A DNA stretch of 64,000 nucleotides from positions 25,061 through 89,060 of the forward strand of contig JAUWPV010000005.1 in NCBI GenBank assembly GCA_030611385.1. The letters run 5' to 3'. The DNA comes from Bacillota bacterium (GTDB lineage: Bacteria; Bacillota; Dethiobacteria; DTU022). The notes beneath the pieces were generated by a model. It was given only the letters and a program-made list of their open reading frames with translations. It ran no database searches and had not been told where the DNA came from. Position numbers and translations under genes: made by a program. Numbering within the stretch: the first letter of the stretch is position 1; each line of letters starts with the position of its first letter. Below, one piece after another: positions 13,865-24,345 of this stretch.

Positions 13865-15400
13865 GTGCTCGCAAAAGTCCATTCGTGCACACTGTTAGGT
13901 ATTAAAGGAATTCCTTTGGAGATAGAAGTTGATATTGCCGATGGCTTGCCCGCTTTTGATATTATTGGCCTGCCGGACGCTTCTGTCCGGGAAGCTAAAG
14001 AAAGAGTGCGCGCAGCCATCCGTAACAGCGGTTTTTCATTTCCCTATTCACGGATTACAGTAAATCTTGCTCCGGCCGCCCTTAAGAAAGAAGGTTCTGC
14101 TTTCGATCTGGCCATTGCAATAGGCCTACTTGCTGCAACCGGCCAGATTCCAAGAGGCATAATGCTGGAAAATGCAGTTTTCATCGGCGAGCTTTCCCTG
14201 GATGGTAATCTGCGCGGTATAAACGGCACCCTGGCGATGGCTTTATCCTTGAGTGAATTTCCCGATTACCAGAATAAAATACTCTACCTTCCAGAGGCAA
14301 ACAGCACCGAAGCAGCTTTGGTGAATAGCCTGACAGTGAAAGGAACCGGCACTTTAATTCAACTGGCCAACTATTTGTGCGGAATTGGTGAACTGCAATC
14401 GGCTGAACCTCTGCTTGATCAACTGATCGAGGAAAACTGGGCTGACCTGGATTTCAGTGAGGTAAGAGGGCAAGAAACAGCTAAAAGAGCGCTCGAGATA
14501 GCAGCAGCCGGATCGCACAATGTTCTGCTTTACGGGCCTCCAGGCAGTGGTAAAACAATGTTGGCCAGGCGAATTCCTTCAATATTACCCGCTCCCACTC
14601 TTGATGAAATCCTTGAAATGACCAGGATTCACAGCGTTGCCGGGCAGTTGAACCCAGATAAACCACTGCTAACGCAGCGGCCCTTCCGCAGCCCGCACCA
14701 CAGTGCTTCAACCGCCGGTATAATCGGCGGCGGTAAAACCCCCCGACCGGGCGAAGTCAGTCTCGCCCACCGCGGAGTCCTTTTCTTTGACGAGCTGCCG
14801 GAGTATAACCGGGAAGTTCTCGAAGCACTCAGACAACCTCTTGAAGATAGAACGGTCTCAGTAACTCGCGTTGCCGCTACCGTTACCTACCCTGCCGATT
14901 TCATGTTTATCGGTTCGATGAATCCCTGCCCGTGCGGCAATTACGGTGACCCCCGCCAGGAGTGCCGTTGCAGTCCGACGCAAATTTTTCGCTACCGTTC
15001 AAAATTGTCCGGTCCACTGATCGACCGTATCGATATCCAGGTTGAAATGCCCGGCATTAAATTTGAACAACTGCAGCAAAAAGAATCTGGCGAAAGTTCT
15101 GCAAAAATCAGGGGAAGAGTTAATGCAGCCCGTTCAAAACAGCATGAGCGCTATAAAAGAATTAAAGTAATTTCTAACGCTCAGCTGCGTTCGCGTCATT
15201 TTGAAAAATACTGCCCTCTGAGCACAGAAGCCCGGCAGCTTTTACACCAATCTTTTCAAAGCTTAAATTTATCCATGCGCGCTCACGATCGGATTATCAA
15301 GGTTGCCCGGACCATTGCCGATCTGGATCATTCCGATATTATCGGGGCTCCCCATATCGCCGAGGCTGTGCAGTACCGAAACCTTGACCGGCAAAATTAA
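13865..15400 (+). CDS. comM: YifB/ComM family Mg-chelatase-like AAA ATPase
   Basis: VHSCTLLGIKGIPLEIEVDIADGLPAFDIIGLPDASVREAKERVRAAIRNSGF, GPPGSGKTMLARRIPSILP, GSMNPCPCGNYGDP. GTG at 13865 preceded by AGGAGG (13852-13857) preferred over the track start 13802. Confidence 0.96.
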   Translation: MLAKVHSCTLLGIKGIPLEIEVDIADGLPAFDIIGLPDASVREAKERVRAAIRNSGFSFPYSRITVNLAPAALKKEGSAFDLAIAIGLLAATGQIPRGIMLENAVFIGELSLDGNLRGINGTLAMALSLSEFPDYQNKILYLPEANSTEAALVNSLTVKGTGTLIQLANYLCGIGELQSAEPLLDQLIEENWADLDFSEVRGQETAKRALEIAAAGSHNVLLYGPPGSGKTMLARRIPSILPAPTLDEILEMTRIHSVAGQLNPDKPLLTQRPFRSPHHSASTAGIIGGGKTPRPGEVSLAHRGVLFFDELPEYNREVLEALRQPLEDRTVSVTRVAATVTYPADFMFIGSMNPCPCGNYGDPRQECRCSPTQIFRYRSKLSGPLIDRIDIQVEMPGIKFEQLQQKESGESSAKIRGRVNAARSKQHERYKRIKVISNAQLRSRHFEKYCPLSTEARQLLHQSFQSLNLSMRAHDRIIKVARTIADLDHSDIIGAPHIAEAVQYRNLDRQN

Positions 15401-15425
15401 ATTCTTGATCAGGTTTTTCCCCAGG
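15000..15425 (+). repeat. comM 3'-end repeat, copy 1 (within intact comM plus about 25 bp downstream)
   Basis: caaaattgtccggtccactgatcga... recurs at 17023; its last ~110 bp, including taaattcttga past the stop, recurs at 24238. Confidence 0.95.
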
Positions 15426-15494: not shown

Positions 15495-15846
15495 AAACAC
15501 AAAGGGACAGTTCTTCTGTGTTGTTCATGAGACAAAACAGAATCTCATGGTTTAGATACCCCTTATAACCCCAAAGCTTACACCGGCTAACCTTTCAATT
15601 TGCCTGATTGATAAACCTTTTTCCTTAAGCAGTTTGATTAGTTTATTCCTTTTTTGCTTTTCATAAGCCTGAATATCTCCGGGGTTCTTTACGTTGGTAA
15701 TACTCTTAATCAGTTCGGCTGTCTTCATCATCTTCAAATATCCGTTGTTTATTTATATCTCTGAGGATAATATGATATATCGCGGTTTTAACCGTACCCA
15801 AAGTGTAGCGCTTCAGGGGGTCACTCCAAACCGTCCCTATGTGTTT
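15495..15846 (-). mobile_element. MITE-like remnant 1 of a REP-associated / Y1 (IS200-like) transposase element
   Basis: Left end aaacacaaagggacagttcttctgtgttgttcatg; right end aaaccgtccctatgtgttt. Inside, minus-strand TVKTAIYHIILRDINKQRIFEDDEDSR fused out of frame to AELIKSITNVKNPGDIQAYEKQKRNKLIKLLKEKGLSIRQIERLAGVSFGVIRGI (ORF 15552..15737). Confidence 0.75.
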
Positions 15847-15873
15847 ACCTATGTGTTTATCTATGTGTTTATC
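15838..15873. repeat. Short tandem repeat, 3 x 12 bp TATGTGTTTAYC
   Basis: tatgtgtttacc tatgtgtttatc tatgtgtttatc at the right end of remnant 1, overlapping the mazF stop codon. Confidence 0.9.
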
Positions 15874-16210
15874 GTTCTATACAGCCAAAGAGAATATCAA
15901 AAACCTCGTCAGTGATGCGGCGGGACGCCTTTTCAACAAATACTGCATTTCTCGCTTTAAGATCGAGGGACTTAACTTGCTCACACATTACTACCCCGCT
16001 GGTTTTCGTCTGTTCATCAAGCATAACATGCAGTGGAAAACCTTTAAGTGTGGTTGTGATCGGGCAGACAATAGCGAGATTAGTAAGGTAATGAAAATCC
16101 CGGTTGCTGGCAACAAAAGCGGGTCTTTTTCCTTTCTGTTCATGACCAGCCTGGGGGTTAAAATCAAGTGTTATAATATCGCCCTGTTCAGGTTGATACT
16201 GATCTACCAT
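15869..16210 (-). CDS. mazF: MazF/PemK-family toxin (endoribonuclease)
   Basis: QGDIITLDFNPQAGHEQKGKRPAFVASNRDFHYLTNLAIVCPITTTLKGFPLHVML...MCEQVKSLDL; overlaps the antitoxin ORF by 7 nt. Confidence 0.93.
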   Translation of the reverse strand: MVDQYQPEQGDIITLDFNPQAGHEQKGKRPAFVASNRDFHYLTNLAIVCPITTTLKGFPLHVMLDEQTKTSGVVMCEQVKSLDLKARNAVFVEKASRRITDEVFDILFGCIER

Positions 16211-16550: not shown

Positions 16551-17021
16551 TAACACAAGGGACAGTTCTTCTGTATTGTTCATGAAACAAAACACAACCT
16601 CATGGTTTATATACCCCTTATAACTCCAAAACTTACACCGGTTAACCTTTCAATTTGCCTGATCGATAAACCTTTTTCCTTAAGCAGCTTGATTAGATTA
16701 CTCCTTTTTTGCTTTTCGTATGCCTGAATATCACCGGGGTTCTTTACAGTGGCAATACTTTTAATTAGTTCGGTTGCCTCAGGGTCATTTAATCTTCCGC
16801 CATCGTCGCATTCCGAGCAGCGATCATTGTTTTTTCCCTGAAGGAAATAACGGCTTTCTTCATCGCCTTCAAATATCAATTGTTTGTTTATACCTTTGAG
16901 GATAATATGATATATAGTGGTGCTGTTTTTCTTTCTCGCGCTTCTTGGCATATGATCACCCTAGTTAAAAATAGCAGAAAGGTAATCACAGAACAACACA
17001 AAAGAACCGTCCCCGTGTGTT
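16551..17021 (-). mobile_element. MITE-like remnant 2 of the same Y1/REP transposase family
   Basis: Ends are inverted copies: taacacaagggacagttcttctgtattgttc (16551-16581) and gaacaacacaaaagaaccgtccccgtgtgtt (16991-17021). Internal ORF 16607..16951 joins transposase N-terminus MPRSARKKNSTTIYHIILKGINKQLIFEGDEESRYFLQ to the C-terminus with the catalytic centre missing. Confidence 0.82.
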
Positions 17022-17022
17022 C

Positions 17023-17423
17023 CAAAATTGTCCGGTCCACTGATCGATCGTATTGATATCCAGGTTGAAATGCCCGGCATTAAATTTGAACAACTGCAGC
17101 AAAAAGAAGCTGGCGAAAGTTCTGCAGAAATCAGGGGAAGAGTTAATGCGGCCCGTTTAAAACAGCATGAGCGCTATAAAAGAATTAAAGTAATTTCTAA
17201 CGCTCAGCTGCGTTCGCGTCATTTTGAAAAATACTGCCCTCTGAGCACAGAAGCCCGGCAGATTTTACACCAATCTTTTCAAAGCTTAAATTTATCCATG
17301 CGCGCTCACGATCGGATTATCAAGGTTGCCCGGACCATTGCCGATCTGGATCATTCCGAAACTATCGGGGCTCCCCATATCGCCGAGGCGGTGCAGTACC
17401 GAAACCTTGACCGGCAAAATTAA
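17023..17423 (+). pseudogene. comM 3'-end repeat, copy 2 (about 400 bp, ORF intact but truncated)
   Basis: Near-identical to 15000..15400 (about ten substitutions by eye, several non-synonymous: S/A, K/E, S/L, L/I, D/E, I/T); starts immediately after the transposon end at 17021. Confidence 0.95.
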
Positions 17424-17441
17424 TTATTATATTTGGTTACA

Positions 17442-17459
17442 ATATAGCACTTGCTATAT
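17442..17459. repeat. Perfect inverted repeat ATATAGC-ACTT-GCTATAT
   Basis: Seen directly between comM copy 2 and the truncated serine recombinase. Confidence 0.8.
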
Positions 17460-17816: not shown

Positions 17817-20426
17817 TTATGGCATAGACAGATTAAGCTTACCTCTTCTCTTTTCTAAGGCATCCTTACCTCCCTCTAATATTTCTATGATCTCCTCTCT
17901 TATTTTAGTATTCTCAATAGCACCTAAGTCATATTTAAATACCGGTTTTTTGCCTCCGCTTTTACTGGAAACAATGATTTCTTCACTATCGCTACACACA
18001 ACAAGGTTTGCGTTGTGTGATGCAACGATGATTTGTCTTTTTACTTTCTCCTCTTTTATAAAATCTACAATGTGCTTTGAAATCGCCCGTGCATCTAAAT
18101 CATCTTCCGGCTGATCAATTAATACGGGATAGTTGTAATCATCAAACTTAAAAATATACTCTAGTAAAACAAGGGCTTTTTCTCCATCTGACATATGGTC
18201 ATATTCTTCACCTTTTTTGTTTTTTATGCTCTTTTGAAAGTTTATTTTAAACCTGTTCTTGAATAATCTAATAAGTATATTTTCCTTATCTCTTCCTGCT
18301 TTTAACAGTAGATCACCAGTTAAAATACCAAGAAACAATTCCCTTAATAGTTTGAAATATTGACTTTTACTGTAAGTCCATTCTGCAGGATTAATTAAAA
18401 AGCTATTCGCTTCCTTATACCTTTTTTCTTCATCATTTCTAAATGAAGTTGAGTTGTGATAATTTATGTTTTCATCAATGAATAACTTAAAACTTTCTTC
18501 ACCAAAGCTTGTAGTAATTTCAACGACTGAAAACTCTAAGTACCCAACATCTAAAATAAGGTGTTTATACCGCTCGTTAAAAAGAAAGTATTTTTCTACG
18601 ATTTCTTTCTGTTTGTCATTGTAAACCTTTCGTAACTCCTCTAACTCTTTTTTAAGAGCAACAATCGATTGCAACACTTCCTTTTTATCTTGCAAAGACT
18701 TCGTTAGATCAACTAGGGACCGATGCTTTTCTACCTTTGCCTTTAGTGGTTTTAGACTTGTTTCTATATCAGAAATAATTTCCTCTAGTTCTGCTCTGTC
18801 GTTCTTGAGGTTACTTATTTCTAACTTAATAAATTCTTTCTTAAAAAGTTCATCGAATTCTTTCAGCTTTTTCTCAATTTTTTCTCGGTATTTTTGAGAA
18901 AATTCAAATTCAAATATCTTCTCAGCAGTGATAATCTCTTCTTCCTTTAAGGACTCAAACGAGGCTATATCTCTTTTATGAATATTAAGATTCTGTGCTT
19001 GTTTAATTTTTTCAGCGTTGAGCCGCTTGTAATCCTCTAACTCCTCGTTGGTAATTTTCTTTCCCGTTTTGTTAATTTCTTTTAGCTTATTGTCAATCCT
19101 TTCAATCTCACTTTCTATATCTTCTTTCTTGCCAAGTTTTTTAATTTTACTTTGCTTTTCTCTTTCGTCTTCTCTAATTGCAAGTAATTCTCTAGCCAAC
19201 GATGTTATCCTCAGAAAGTTTTCATTCTCAAATCTTCTATAATCTTGTAACGTTTGGCTAAAATCTTCTTTATTCTCAAATAAGCTCAACAAAAAGTCAT
19301 CGAATTGGGAACTTCTTTCATATACTAATTCCCCCAAATATCTTTGCGGGATAAATAATACCCCCTTTGCTTTATCTTCTGTTGAATCCAAAGTATTTTC
19401 TTTTTTGTCTCTCCAAAAAACCTTAAAGTCATTCAGTTGCAAAAAATCTTCTTGATCAATTCCTTTTTCTTTACACTGTTCTGGATCAACAGCGAAAGCA
19501 ATATTTTTAAGCAGATTTGATTTACCTGTTGCTCGGCTACCAATAATTGAGTTTAAGTTTTGATTGAAATACACAACCTGCTTTTCTGCGTCGGAAAAGT
19601 TTTTATACTCAACCCTGTCAATGATGTTGTAATTGGATTTTTCCTCGGGCTCCAATTCTTGAATTCTAACCCTTCCTTCCGGTTCATATACGATCTGCTT
19701 CAAACCATCAAATGTAGGATCAGCCTTAATCCAGCAATATGACTTTAGTTGGTACTTTCTTGCGTTGTGATTGTCCGAACAGATAATCATAGGATATGTA
19801 CCTATTTCGAGAAAAACTTTTTTAGTGTAACCTTCTTGATCTTTCTCTTGTCCCAATTCGAAGATGTCCGCACATTTAGCTATATCTTCCTTTTCAGCCA
19901 TTGTAACGGGCAAGGAATTGGTAATTTTCTCTATGGAATTTGACTTACTGCCTGCATGAAGAGAAACAATGCCGCCTAAATCTTTTATGAGCTTCGAAGT
20001 TATTTCTAGGTCGCAGTAAATTTCATTATCTCCCTTTCCTTCCTGTTTCTTTTTTGCGATGTCTGCTTTCGAATTGATCTCACTCCAAATATACTCAATG
20101 TTACTATCTTCAGGAAATATTCCTATAAAGTGAACGGGATCTCTTCCTCGAGCATCGGAACATAACTCTATCCCTGGAAGGATAACAATATCATTTATTG
20201 CTATATTTTTAAGGTCTTTTATTCTTTGAGCATCGATAAAATGATGGTCGGTAATAGCAACAACGCTTATGCCTTCTTTCCTCAAGCTCTCAATAATATC
20301 TTTATTGGTTACCGATTTATCGTCATAATCATGATGGGAACTGGGAGTATGAAAATGCAAATCCCACTTTCTCCATTCTGAACCCCTGTACATTTTTAAG
20401 TTTGTACCTGGCATAGATAATTTCAC
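17817..20426 (-). CDS. PHP-domain plus SMC/RecF-like AAA ATPase (869 aa), resembling TrlF/Spaf_1101-type ATPases; putative defence protein
   Basis: PHP motifs HFHTPSSHH, ITDHH, GIEL, LHAG, SDNHN; ATPase motifs GSRATGKSNLLKNIAF (Walker A), SDGEKALVLLEY (signature), YPVLIDQPEDDLD (Walker B), IVASHNANLVV; central coiled coil. Confidence 0.85.
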   Translation of the reverse strand: MKLSMPGTNLKMYRGSEWRKWDLHFHTPSSHHDYDDKSVTNKDIIESLRKEGISVVAITDHHFIDAQRIKDLKNIAINDIVILPGIELCSDARGRDPVHFIGIFPEDSNIEYIWSEINSKADIAKKKQEGKGDNEIYCDLEITSKLIKDLGGIVSLHAGSKSNSIEKITNSLPVTMAEKEDIAKCADIFELGQEKDQEGYTKKVFLEIGTYPMIICSDNHNARKYQLKSYCWIKADPTFDGLKQIVYEPEGRVRIQELEPEEKSNYNIIDRVEYKNFSDAEKQVVYFNQNLNSIIGSRATGKSNLLKNIAFAVDPEQCKEKGIDQEDFLQLNDFKVFWRDKKENTLDSTEDKAKGVLFIPQRYLGELVYERSSQFDDFLLSLFENKEDFSQTLQDYRRFENENFLRITSLARELLAIREDEREKQSKIKKLGKKEDIESEIERIDNKLKEINKTGKKITNEELEDYKRLNAEKIKQAQNLNIHKRDIASFESLKEEEIITAEKIFEFEFSQKYREKIEKKLKEFDELFKKEFIKLEISNLKNDRAELEEIISDIETSLKPLKAKVEKHRSLVDLTKSLQDKKEVLQSIVALKKELEELRKVYNDKQKEIVEKYFLFNERYKHLILDVGYLEFSVVEITTSFGEESFKLFIDENINYHNSTSFRNDEEKRYKEANSFLINPAEWTYSKSQYFKLLRELFLGILTGDLLLKAGRDKENILIRLFKNRFKINFQKSIKNKKGEEYDHMSDGEKALVLLEYIFKFDDYNYPVLIDQPEDDLDARAISKHIVDFIKEEKVKRQIIVASHNANLVVCSDSEEIIVSSKSGGKKPVFKYDLGAIENTKIREEIIEILEGGKDALEKRRGKLNLSMP

Positions 20427-20587: not shown

Positions 20588-21224
20588 CTACAGTAACCTG
20601 AACTGTCCTCTTTCATTCCCTACTTTATTTGTATAGTGTTTTCTCGAGAATCTGATCACCTTCTCTTTATTTCCCTGCTCCTCAAACCTGTAGAAAGGTG
20701 GCGAGGTTATAGCCTAAAAAGGCAGTGATGGCTTGCCGTCTATAACCAGTTTGAGATAGATGTGATACTTATCTATCATAATTAAGTCTCCCCTCTTAAA
20801 TTCGGGGTAAAACTCCTTTTCTAAAAACTCACCGTCTTCCGGACCGACAGGAAAGGAAATAATCGTCCCCACGTTTCCAAAGACTGTCTTTCGTAAATCC
20901 TCGTCAAGCTGTCCTATATACTGGTGAGCTACTATTAAACTCAGCCGGTATTTTCTTACCTCAGAGAGAATACCTTTGAAGGCCTCCGCGGCAACAAACT
21001 CCTTAAACTCATCTACGTAGAGAAAATAATCTCTTCTTTTATCTTCTAAGACATCAATGCGGCTCATCGCTGCAAGCTGAATTTTAGTAACGATTAAAGA
21101 ACCAAGAAAAGAGGATATATCGGCCTCGAGCAGGAAATTAGGAAACATTGAAAAGTGTTTAAGGCCCAGATAATCGTCTGTTGCCCTGAAAAAAGACTGC
21201 TGAATAAGATAAGATCTCTCGCTT
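20588..21224 (-). pseudogene. Decayed conjugative / type IV secretion ATPase (TraM-recognition / DUF87 type) C-terminal fragment
   Basis: FLLEADISSFLGSLIVTKIQLAAMSRIDVLEDKRRDYFLYVDEFKEFVAAEAFKGILSEVRKYRLSLIVAHQYIGQLDEDLRKTVFGNVGTIISFPVG. Readable in-frame past a TAG at 20714 (AITSPPFYRFEEQGNKEKVIRFSRKHYTNK...); no N-terminal Walker A region. Confidence 0.8.
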
Positions 21225-21536: not shown

Positions 21537-22313
21537 ATGGAGATAGCATCCAGCGTAGCTCATAGGGTCCTCAAATATGCTGCTACAGTTGTACGTAGGA
21601 ACGTAGTCTTGTCAGTAGCCAATCTGCACAGATACGCTGAATCTCCGTTCCCGAAACAGCGAACGGTGTTCTCTTTGCCTCTATTTGATCTCTTTGTTCA
21701 AGAGGTAGAGGATGTAGTTGATTTTTTGCTTCGTGTGGGCTGGATATCTACGGTTCGGAATCAAGAAGATGAAAACGGTGAAAACCAGGCGGTGAAGCTT
21801 ACACCGGTGGGACTCGCTGTATTGGCTGAACTTGAGGAAACAACGAACACAAATATTTGCGAAGGCACTGAGACAGTGTTACTAGATGACAATGATCCAT
21901 TTTCTTACGCACGAGTTGTAGGACGAATCGTTGATCACGAAGAGTGTCTAATCGCGGATCCTTATTTTCGATTAGATCAGCTGGAGGACATAATACGTTT
22001 CACCAAGACCCGTCGAGTTTTGACGAGTCGTAAAATAGGTGAAGCACGTATAGCAGAGCTTGCAACAGCGGTACAGTTGCTGTCTGAAACCCAGCGTCCG
22101 GAGATCCGAGTTAGCTCAGCTGCAGAATTCCATGATAGATATATCATTTCCCTTAATCAGGATCGAGTGAGTTTCCTTGGTACTTCGCTGAACAGTGTTC
22201 AAGGTAAACTGTCACTGATTGGAAGGATACATGGACCAGTCGAAGGTAAGATTCGCGAAGCTTATAATCGACTTTGGAGCGAAGCGGATCCACTTGAACA
22301 GCGGAATGACTGA
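21537..22313 (+). CDS. Uncharacterised protein (258 aa), predicted winged-helix N-terminus and degenerate PLD-like C-terminus
   Basis: Full ORF after ggggggaa RBS; LIADPYFRLDQLEDIIRF...FHDRYIISLNQDRVSFLGTSLNSVQGKLSLI resembles one half of a PLD-like fold; KLTPVGLAVLAEL resembles a wHTH wing. Confidence 0.6.
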   Translation: MEIASSVAHRVLKYAATVVRRNVVLSVANLHRYAESPFPKQRTVFSLPLFDLFVQEVEDVVDFLLRVGWISTVRNQEDENGENQAVKLTPVGLAVLAELEETTNTNICEGTETVLLDDNDPFSYARVVGRIVDHEECLIADPYFRLDQLEDIIRFTKTRRVLTSRKIGEARIAELATAVQLLSETQRPEIRVSSAAEFHDRYIISLNQDRVSFLGTSLNSVQGKLSLIGRIHGPVEGKIREAYNRLWSEADPLEQRND

Positions 22314-22392
22314 GCAAGTGGTCAACTATCTAAGCGCAAGAATGTTAAATATGATTCATAGAGCCGATGTCAGATTCGAAATACTGGGTTAA
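22306..22392 (+). CDS. Possible 28-aa small ORF, translationally coupled between flanking genes
   Basis: MTEQVVNYLSARMLNMIHRADVRFEILG*; ATGACTGA overlap with the upstream stop; ends 6 nt before the ATG at 22399. Confidence 0.25.
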   Translation: MTEQVVNYLSARMLNMIHRADVRFEILG

Positions 22393-22398
22393 GGGGCG

Positions 22399-23004
22399 AT
22401 GACTGTGCCAGACTCTAAGTTCGGGTTGATGGAAGAGTATAGGTCGCTACGCGACGAGATTATGAAGAGGCAAGAAGCTCGCCAGTTGACGATAGGATTT
22501 ACCGTGACCGCCGTGGCGACCACGACGGGATTGTCACTTAGCGGTATTGCCCCAAATATAGAGGGGCCAAACCTCTTTGTCTTGGCCCTAGTCGGGCTCG
22601 CGCTGGCGCTAGTAGTCGCGGCACTTCTGTTGACGATACACCACACGCAACATATCGACCTCATGTCTACGTATATCAGACACTTCGTCGAATCGGAAAT
22701 ACCGGGGATTAGATGGGAATCACGCTGGACCCTCTATAGGAAAGCTTCGCGATCTAAGCTCTCGGGTGGTGGTTTACCCATGGGAACTTCGAAACCTCTG
22801 GCTTTTTTCTACGCATTAATGACTCTCGCTGATTTCTCAGTACTCTTTGTAACTGGACTATACAGTTACTGGTATGCCATCTCAGTCCTTTCTGGTCTGG
22901 CACTCTTATCACTATCTTTGTCATTTGACTTGTACTTCAGGAAGTCGCGTGGATGGAAAACCCGATGGGACCTCGTGGACCAGGAAAAGGTGAAGCCGTG
23001 TTAG
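22399..23004 (+). CDS. Uncharacterised membrane protein (201 aa, about 4 predicted TM helices)
   Basis: RBS aaggggcg; EYRSLRDEIMKRQEARQLTIGFTVTAVATTTGLSLSG, LFVLALVGLALALVVAALLLTIHH, then two further hydrophobic segments. Confidence 0.75.
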   Translation: MTVPDSKFGLMEEYRSLRDEIMKRQEARQLTIGFTVTAVATTTGLSLSGIAPNIEGPNLFVLALVGLALALVVAALLLTIHHTQHIDLMSTYIRHFVESEIPGIRWESRWTLYRKASRSKLSGGGLPMGTSKPLAFFYALMTLADFSVLFVTGLYSYWYAISVLSGLALLSLSLSFDLYFRKSRGWKTRWDLVDQEKVKPC

Positions 23005-23173
23005 TGAGTGATGCAGTTGTTAGCCAAAGTTTCCCAAGTTGATACGACTCACTTACTTATCAAACAAACAATTCCAGCATACAACAAGTCTATTTTAGTT
23101 ATAAGTGGTAGTTTTATGAAATTCTTGAGTCAATTTTTATAAAAAAATACTTTGTGGAAGGAAACCTGGTTTT

Positions 23174-23803
23174 GTGAAGTTTTATACTAAGATCACCTTA
23201 TGGGAAAATCAGCGCAGACTAAGAATACTTTTCGAGTTTCGTAATATTGTGAACACTTATTTTGACAATAGTCGTATTGAGTGGGCGTCTGGCGAACAAA
23301 TTGAAGACGTTGATGCTCAGAGAGCACGAGTCAAAATTAATCGAACTATGAGTGAAGTTTATAGTGTCATTTTGCATTCCAGGATGAATCCATCTGTACG
23401 ATGGACACCCCCACCAATTGTAGGTGGCTATGTTCAAGATGTCGATCTAATTCTTGACCTTTTCCATATACACCGGCTCCAGATCTCGCCAAAAAATGTG
23501 CTTGATTTTATCGATAGAGTTATAGGAACTTATGAAAATAATTATGTGCGAGCGATAGTAAGAACATTCAATCCTTTATTTTATATCGGACTGATACTGG
23601 ACTGGATAGCATCGCTTCCTTTTGTATTGATTAATAAAATCGGTTTTAATAGCGCAAAAGTAGAATCCTCGATTATTGGCAAACTTTTAAAAGGGTTCCT
23701 TTATGTGGTAACCGCTACCGCTTCAATTCTTACTATACTGCATCTACTAAACTACCTAGAATCTGTTAAGCAATTCATAGAACATATATTTGTTTCTAAG
23801 TAA
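23174..23803 (+). CDS. Uncharacterised protein (209 aa) with C-terminal hydrophobic segments
   Basis: Full ORF after aaggaaacc; NPLFYIGLILDWIASLPFVLI and LLKGFLYVVTATASILTILHLLNYL. Confidence 0.65.
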   Translation: MKFYTKITLWENQRRLRILFEFRNIVNTYFDNSRIEWASGEQIEDVDAQRARVKINRTMSEVYSVILHSRMNPSVRWTPPPIVGGYVQDVDLILDLFHIHRLQISPKNVLDFIDRVIGTYENNYVRAIVRTFNPLFYIGLILDWIASLPFVLINKIGFNSAKVESSIIGKLLKGFLYVVTATASILTILHLLNYLESVKQFIEHIFVSK

Positions 23804-23843: not shown

Positions 23844-24180
23844 CTATAAGCATCTTTCGTTTCTCTCCCATCGGGCCAAAGTCGTAGGGTCAACGCCCAA
23901 TTGCCTAGCCGGTTCCTTCTGTGTCATACTGATAAACCTACGGTAGTATACTATCTTCTCCCCCAATGTTTCCGGATCTTTATCAAAAGGAACATAGCCC
24001 AGATACTTAACAATTCTTGGTATATGCTGCAGTTTCGGTAATGAGTAACCCTTTTCCCAGTTGTAGACTTTGGTTTTATCAACCCCGAGAACTGGAGCAA
24101 CATCCTTCTGAAGAAGTTTTAGATCAAGTCTTCTTTTCCTCAGGAGGTTGCCTATGGTCTTCAGCTCTCGGCAATGTATA
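23844..24180 (-). pseudogene. Double helix-turn-helix (XRE-like) regulator fragment without a start codon
   Basis: Minus-strand read: HCRELKTIGNLLRKRRLDLKLLQKDVAPVLGVDKTKVYNWEKGYSLPKLQHIPRIVKYLGYVPFDKDPETLGEKIVYYRRFISMTQKEPARQLGVDPTTLARWERNERCL*. Confidence 0.75.
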
Positions 24181-24237
24181 CTATTCCCAATGGGTGAGAC
24201 ACGAAAAAGAAAAATAAGTTACAATGGGTGCATTATA

Positions 24238-24345
24238 CATTGCCGATCTGGATCATTCCGAAACTATCGGGGCTCCCCATATCGCCGAGGCTGTGCAGTA
24301 CCGAAACCTTGACCGGCAAAGTTAAATTCTTGACCAAGTTTCTCC
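24238..24345 (+). repeat. comM 3'-end repeat, copy 3 (about 108 bp), abutting yraN
   Basis: cattgccgatctggatcattccgaaactatcggggctccccatatcgccgaggctgtgcagtaccgaaaccttgaccggcaaagttaaattcttga; shares GAAACT with copy 2 but GAGGCTGTG and post-stop sequence with copy 1. Confidence 0.95.

Follow-up and report, generated by a model that had tools for sequence, protein, structure and literature searches.

Do three consecutive, uncharacterized genes in a bacterial accessory island form one system, and what might the first of them do? The genes, termed P1, P2, and P3 here, lie in a 64,000-nucleotide stretch of a Bacillota genome (the window; contig JAUWPV010000005.1, positions 25,061 to 89,060), and their coordinates and those of the surrounding features are collected in Table 1. 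All three open reading frames (ORFs) are present and intact on the plus strand where the original prediction had placed them, and a purine-rich stretch lies 5' of each start codon (GGGGGAAG for P1, AAGGGG for P2, and GGAAGG for P3). They are far longer than chance would give; when the 3.1-kb region was simulated 2000 times with a first-order Markov model, the longest ORF had a median of 91 aa, while 201 aa was reached in 1/2000 simulations and 258 aa in 0/2000. A promoter and terminator scan gave a result no better than that for shuffles. The orientation against the neighbors was also confirmed, with P1 to P3 on the plus strand and the TrlF gene, the TraG/TraD fragment, and the XRE frame on the minus strand.

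Table 1. Features of the island, in window coordinates
Feature	Coordinates	Strand	Description
comM (yifB) 3' end, copy 1	15313-15420	+	direct repeat, ~108 bp
comM (yifB) 3' end, copy 2	17336-17443	+	left border of the P1-bearing segment
TrlF-family AAA-like ATPase	17817..20426	-	PHP-like N-terminus; NF045780, 460 bits (cut-off 350)
TraG/TraD/VirD4-type coupling protein	20714..21148	-	C-terminal fragment; PF12696, 25 bits (cut-off 22)
P1	21537..22313	+	258 aa, ATG start; predicted wHTH + PLD-like half-domain
P2	22399..23004	+	201 aa, ATG start; rare family, ~4 hydrophobic/TM segments, unlinked to P1 elsewhere
P3	23174..23803	+	209 aa, GTG start; soluble N-terminal part, 2 hydrophobic segments near C-terminus
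XRE-like helix-turn-helix frame	23847..24218	-	no usual start codon; HTH_3, 57.5 bits
comM (yifB) 3' end, copy 3	24238-24345	+	right border of the P1-bearing segment

The comM repeats and the mobile-element setting

Three copies of the comM 3' end, sharing a core of ~85 to 90 bp that ends at the comM stop codon, bracket two accessory segments. Gene-end repeats of this type are the trace left when an element integrates site-specifically at the end of a gene, and they suggest that the comM 3' end is an integration site, into which the element would have inserted. Between copies 2 and 3 lie the TrlF gene, the TraG/TraD fragment, P1, P2, P3, and the XRE frame, which is probably truncated; no integrase was recognized among the ORFs of this interval. 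Because of the comM repeats and the fragmentary element genes, we regard the P1-bearing segment as a decayed mobile element.

The surroundings thus agree with the earlier description of intact ORFs amid decayed mobile genes, namely, the TraG/TraD fragment, the start-less XRE frame, and the triplicated comM ends. The same fragmentary neighbors would be expected if the whole segment were leftover cargo, a set of unrelated genes without present function whose ORFs are intact because the insertion is recent. This explanation is improbable in our judgment, since all three ORFs are intact and preceded by plausible ribosome-binding sites, and since P1 retains every residue that is invariant among its relatives (see below).

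The TrlF-family ATPase is intact and related to the anti-phage protein Ppl; a literature search combining TrlF with phage found nothing. It is companion cargo, outside any demonstrated system. In the first accessory segment, a MazF/PemK-like ORF was recognized by eye (15869-16210, minus strand), and the stretches 15502-15786 and 16557-16921 are diverged copies of one another (86 to 90%) that overlap a transposase-like ORF remnant, also identified by eye.

P2, P3, and the question of a three-gene module

The original prediction described P2 as a four-TM protein and P3 as a TM-tailed protein. Hydropathy gives P2 about four hydrophobic segments, of which three are clear, whereas the first is weak, and gives P3 two hydrophobic segments near its C-terminus. 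The AF2 model of P2 consists of long helices with a pLDDT of 55, too poor for a fold search. P2 has one good homologue (31% identity), which is flanked by genes for a ZIP-like transporter and a small membrane protein (both named by eye) and has no P1 near. Assignments of P2 to 8xMP, DUF2244, or PspM (E values of 0.1 to 0.3) and to ABZJ_00895 (19 bits; cut-off, 33) were rejected. For P3, searches of genomes, viral contigs, plasmids, and P1-bearing genomes returned no convincing homologue; matches in two genomes (E values of 0.004 to 0.006) had partial coverage and were rejected. Neither P2 nor P3 was found in viral contigs, P2 was not found in phages, and P2, its homologue, and P3 were not found in plasmids.

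That the three genes are consecutive, intact, on the same strand, and carried by an accessory element would be consistent with one operonic anti-phage module, in which P1 would act as the sensor and P2 and P3 as membrane effectors. However, no P2- or P3-like ORF adjoins any of up to nine actinobacterial relatives of P1. P2, as a single sequence or a two-row profile, gave nothing in six P1-bearing genomes, and the P2 profile gave nothing in 248 sampled Actinomycetota, where the short profiles make for a weaker search than that of a full database; P3 is absent from the P1-bearing genomes checked. In addition, the known homologue of P2 occurs elsewhere without P1. The ORFs do not overlap and are separated by gaps of 85 bp (P1-P2) and 169 bp (P2-P3), and their third-position GC contents are 38% for P1, 57% for P2, and 31% for P3, that of P2 differing from those of P1 (p = 7e-5) and P3 (p = 3e-7).

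A conserved P1-P2-P3 module was not found by protein or profile searches of the phylum of this bacterium, Actinomycetota, or the genomes with P1 relatives. Because of these co-occurrence negatives and the GC difference of P2, a three-gene module is unsupported; the sensor/effector cluster that had been proposed is very doubtful, since a lack of co-occurrence, which the original prediction had named as grounds for refutation, is what the sampled genomes show, and a membrane effector pair is unlikely.

Domain build and conserved site of P1

P1 has a predicted N-terminal winged helix (approximately residues 1 to 100) followed by a single C-terminal PLD-like half-domain (approximately residues 112 to 250). 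Its signature residues are D141PY, H199DR, G215TSLN, and W247, and residues 198 to 219 form the motif FHDRYIISLNQDRVSFLGTSLN. The D, the HDR, the G-S-N, and the W are invariant in 9/9 aligned proteins from three families with differing N-terminal parts, and the pattern D…HDR…GxSxN…W is common to P1, PDC-S05, and VPA1262-type proteins. Such conservation suggests that the HDR-type domain has kept an active or binding site. Compared with the HxKx4D motif of the PLD superfamily, the His is kept, the catalytic Lys is Arg in all nine proteins, and the HKD Asp is unconserved; the GSxN-type motif that lies past HKD is present (GTSLN in P1), with its G, S, and N likewise invariant in the nine. Since the catalytic Lys is replaced and the Asp is unconserved, the P1 site may not catalyze.

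The AF2 model of P1, built from an alignment whose rows are genome loci of relatives, is of moderate quality (pLDDT of 70, pTM of 0.56) and contains one PLD-like half preceded by a winged helix. In a Foldseek search of the PDB, ranks 1 to 7 are occupied by TrmBL2/TrmB structures (best E value of 2.8e-7, for TrmBL2; TM-scores of 0.31 to 0.36 over the whole chain), followed by human BJ-TSA-9, Nuc (1byr; E value of 1.5e-4, TMt of 0.59), SauUSI, and MITD1, with the NgoAVII R protein weaker; because the TM-scores are low (0.3 to 0.4), these matches are statements about fold class. The order of elements in the model and the matches to Nuc and SauUSI place P1 in the PLD superfamily fold, and the position of the motif together with the predicted wHTH-PLD half fold bears out the wHTH/PLD-like assignment made earlier for P1. 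At the sequence level, P1 and P2 match PDB entries no better than by chance, and Pfam gave no match for P1 at E values up to 10. No curated family among those searched models P1 over its full length, whereas its parts are of known kinds.

Like the TrmB/TrmBL2 proteins, which are archaeal regulators or a chromatin protein, P1 has a winged helix and then a PLD-like domain. Unlike them, it is bacterial and borne by a mobile element, and the HDR/GxSxN signature is invariant in its family, a contrast with TrmB that is drawn from the P1 side. In overall build, the nearest described parallel is provided by the PLD-wH restriction enzymes Aba4572I and CbaI, modification-dependent endonucleases and small single proteins that also combine a winged helix with a PLD-like domain (PMC11037411). 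However, the PLD domain precedes the wH in these fusions, as their name says, whereas the winged helix comes first in P1, and their conserved catalytic set of His, Asp or Glu, and Lys differs from the HDR motif of P1, which has no Lys (PMC11037411).

Two further protein families share the HDR-type domain. PDC-S05 is a single-gene phage defense candidate of PADLOC that, like P1, is one protein with a C-terminal PLD-like domain and HDR and GxSxN motifs, and its models (285 and 306 positions) are similar in length to P1. These models are matched by 5/6 P1-family members (best E value of 3.9e-6); P1 itself matches model positions 166 to 289 only (E values of 4.5e-4 to 6.8e-4), leaving the N-terminal part unmatched, and in our alignment the PDC-S05-type protein of locus L028 shares the C-terminal domain alone with P1. 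The N-domain of the VPA1262 family (NF040700/NF040699) ends in the same HDR-type PLD-like domain. P1 matches VPA1262_N_dom (NF040700) over its C-terminus only (E value of 9.8e-11; 41.1 bits, below the curated cut-off of 80), and one VPA1262-type relative passes the Pfam PLDc_2 threshold (30.5 bits; cut-off, 27). Unlike P1, the VPA1262-type proteins found here are ~500 to 550 aa long, have a long and different N-terminus, and in two loci are accompanied by an extra same-strand ORF. In these loci (L029, 5644-8921; L030, 4724-8273), the ORF lies directly downstream of the VPA1262_N-type protein, is 556 or 688 aa long, has no accepted family match, and stands in defense-like surroundings; protein and ORF possibly form a two-gene system.

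Distribution of P1 and candidate functions

Full-length homologues of P1 exist. Plasmid searches with P1 gave four actinobacterial records, and when the alignment of these four was used to scan genomes, three further loci appeared, one of which, from Streptomyces bluensis, is ~43% identical over its full length. Within the Streptomyces family, the P1 profile matched 4/151 genomes, a count that includes the query genome and a partial match. In the phylum of this bacterium, the single sequence found no other carrier among 199 genomes, and the profile found the C-terminal domain only, in three other genomes; three of these matches proved to be VPA1262_N proteins that score higher than the curated cut-off, and one a PDC-S05-type protein (3.1e-22). 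P1 was not found in viral contigs or phages. Its distribution is thus rare and patchy, and its near relatives belong to another phylum, where they occur on plasmids or next to transposases or an integrase-like gene.

A few relatives have defense genes nearby. One adjoins a divergent DISARM run, drmD and then drmMI and drmA (L017, 5710-10676; L032, 173-7904), another is directly upstream of a PDC-S39-matching gene, and a third has a restriction-type helicase within a few kilobases; a VPA1262-type relative lies among AbiH-, SIR2-, and AbiEi-type genes. These neighborhoods are suggestive; they concern few of the relatives and carry no background rate.

The sequences give P1 a two-domain build with an invariant motif, a domain shared with PDC-S05 and VPA1262-type proteins, a mobile setting, and no conserved partner. 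Our tentative preference is that P1 acts on its own, as a DNA-binding protein in which paired PLD-like sites cleave or grip phosphodiesters, possibly in defense. P1 would be cargo of an integrative element, now decayed, that had inserted into the comM 3' end, with P2 and P3 as independent cargo. Its winged helix would bind DNA, and its single half-domain would mediate dimerization, bringing two HDR/GxSxN motifs together into one phosphodiester site. Nuc is a single-half PLD nuclease in which two motifs form one site. The P1 site would most likely cleave or grip nucleic acid, and the protein could be a single-gene restriction or defense nuclease. Such an effector is supported by the predicted fold, which matches Nuc and SauUSI and, to a lesser degree, the NgoAVII R protein, and it is favored by a site that is invariant in families whose N-terminal parts differ; the ties to PDC-S05 and VPA1262, the mobile or defense-gene settings, and the rare, patchy spread support a role in defense. 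Against it stand the low TM-scores, the moderate AF2 model, and the small number of relatives with defense neighbors.

The Arg in place of the HxK Lys and the unconserved HKD Asp, with which the putative nuclease may not catalyze, speak against it and for a TrmB-like regulator, in which the winged helix would sit on an operator and the PLD-like domain, having lost catalysis, would sense a phosphate-bearing ligand; such a protein would perhaps control defense or mobile-element genes. The seven best structural matches of the P1 model, with the same predicted domain order, are regulators or chromatin proteins, and the relatives divergent from DISARM and just upstream of the PDC-S39-like gene are placed as a regulator might be. 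However, P1 relatives have no conserved neighboring target gene, the TrmB models of Pfam match neither P1 (E values up to 10) nor its relatives (up to 1), and HDR and GxSxN are kept in proteins that lack the P1 N-terminus, which suggests that the site has a function in its own right. A regulator is nearly as likely as the stand-alone phosphodiester-site protein, which we still prefer.

As for the original view of the locus as a candidate undescribed system, what stands is the presence of P1 in an accessory island and its domain in common with PDC-S05 and VPA1262, and what falls is the three-gene unit; within a decayed island, genes clustered on one strand do not necessarily make up a system. 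It is rather unlikely, though worth stating, that P1 founds an undescribed single-gene defense family, whose Arg-bearing motif would cleave or sense phage nucleic acid and to which PDC-S05 and VPA1262 would be effector-domain relatives. The HDR-type PLD-like domain appears to be common to at least three accessory-genome protein sets, the P1 family, PDC-S05, and the VPA1262 type, and P1, with its predicted DNA-binding domain, is the smallest of the three. Should the activity of the domain be the same throughout, the biochemistry of P1 would inform all three sets.
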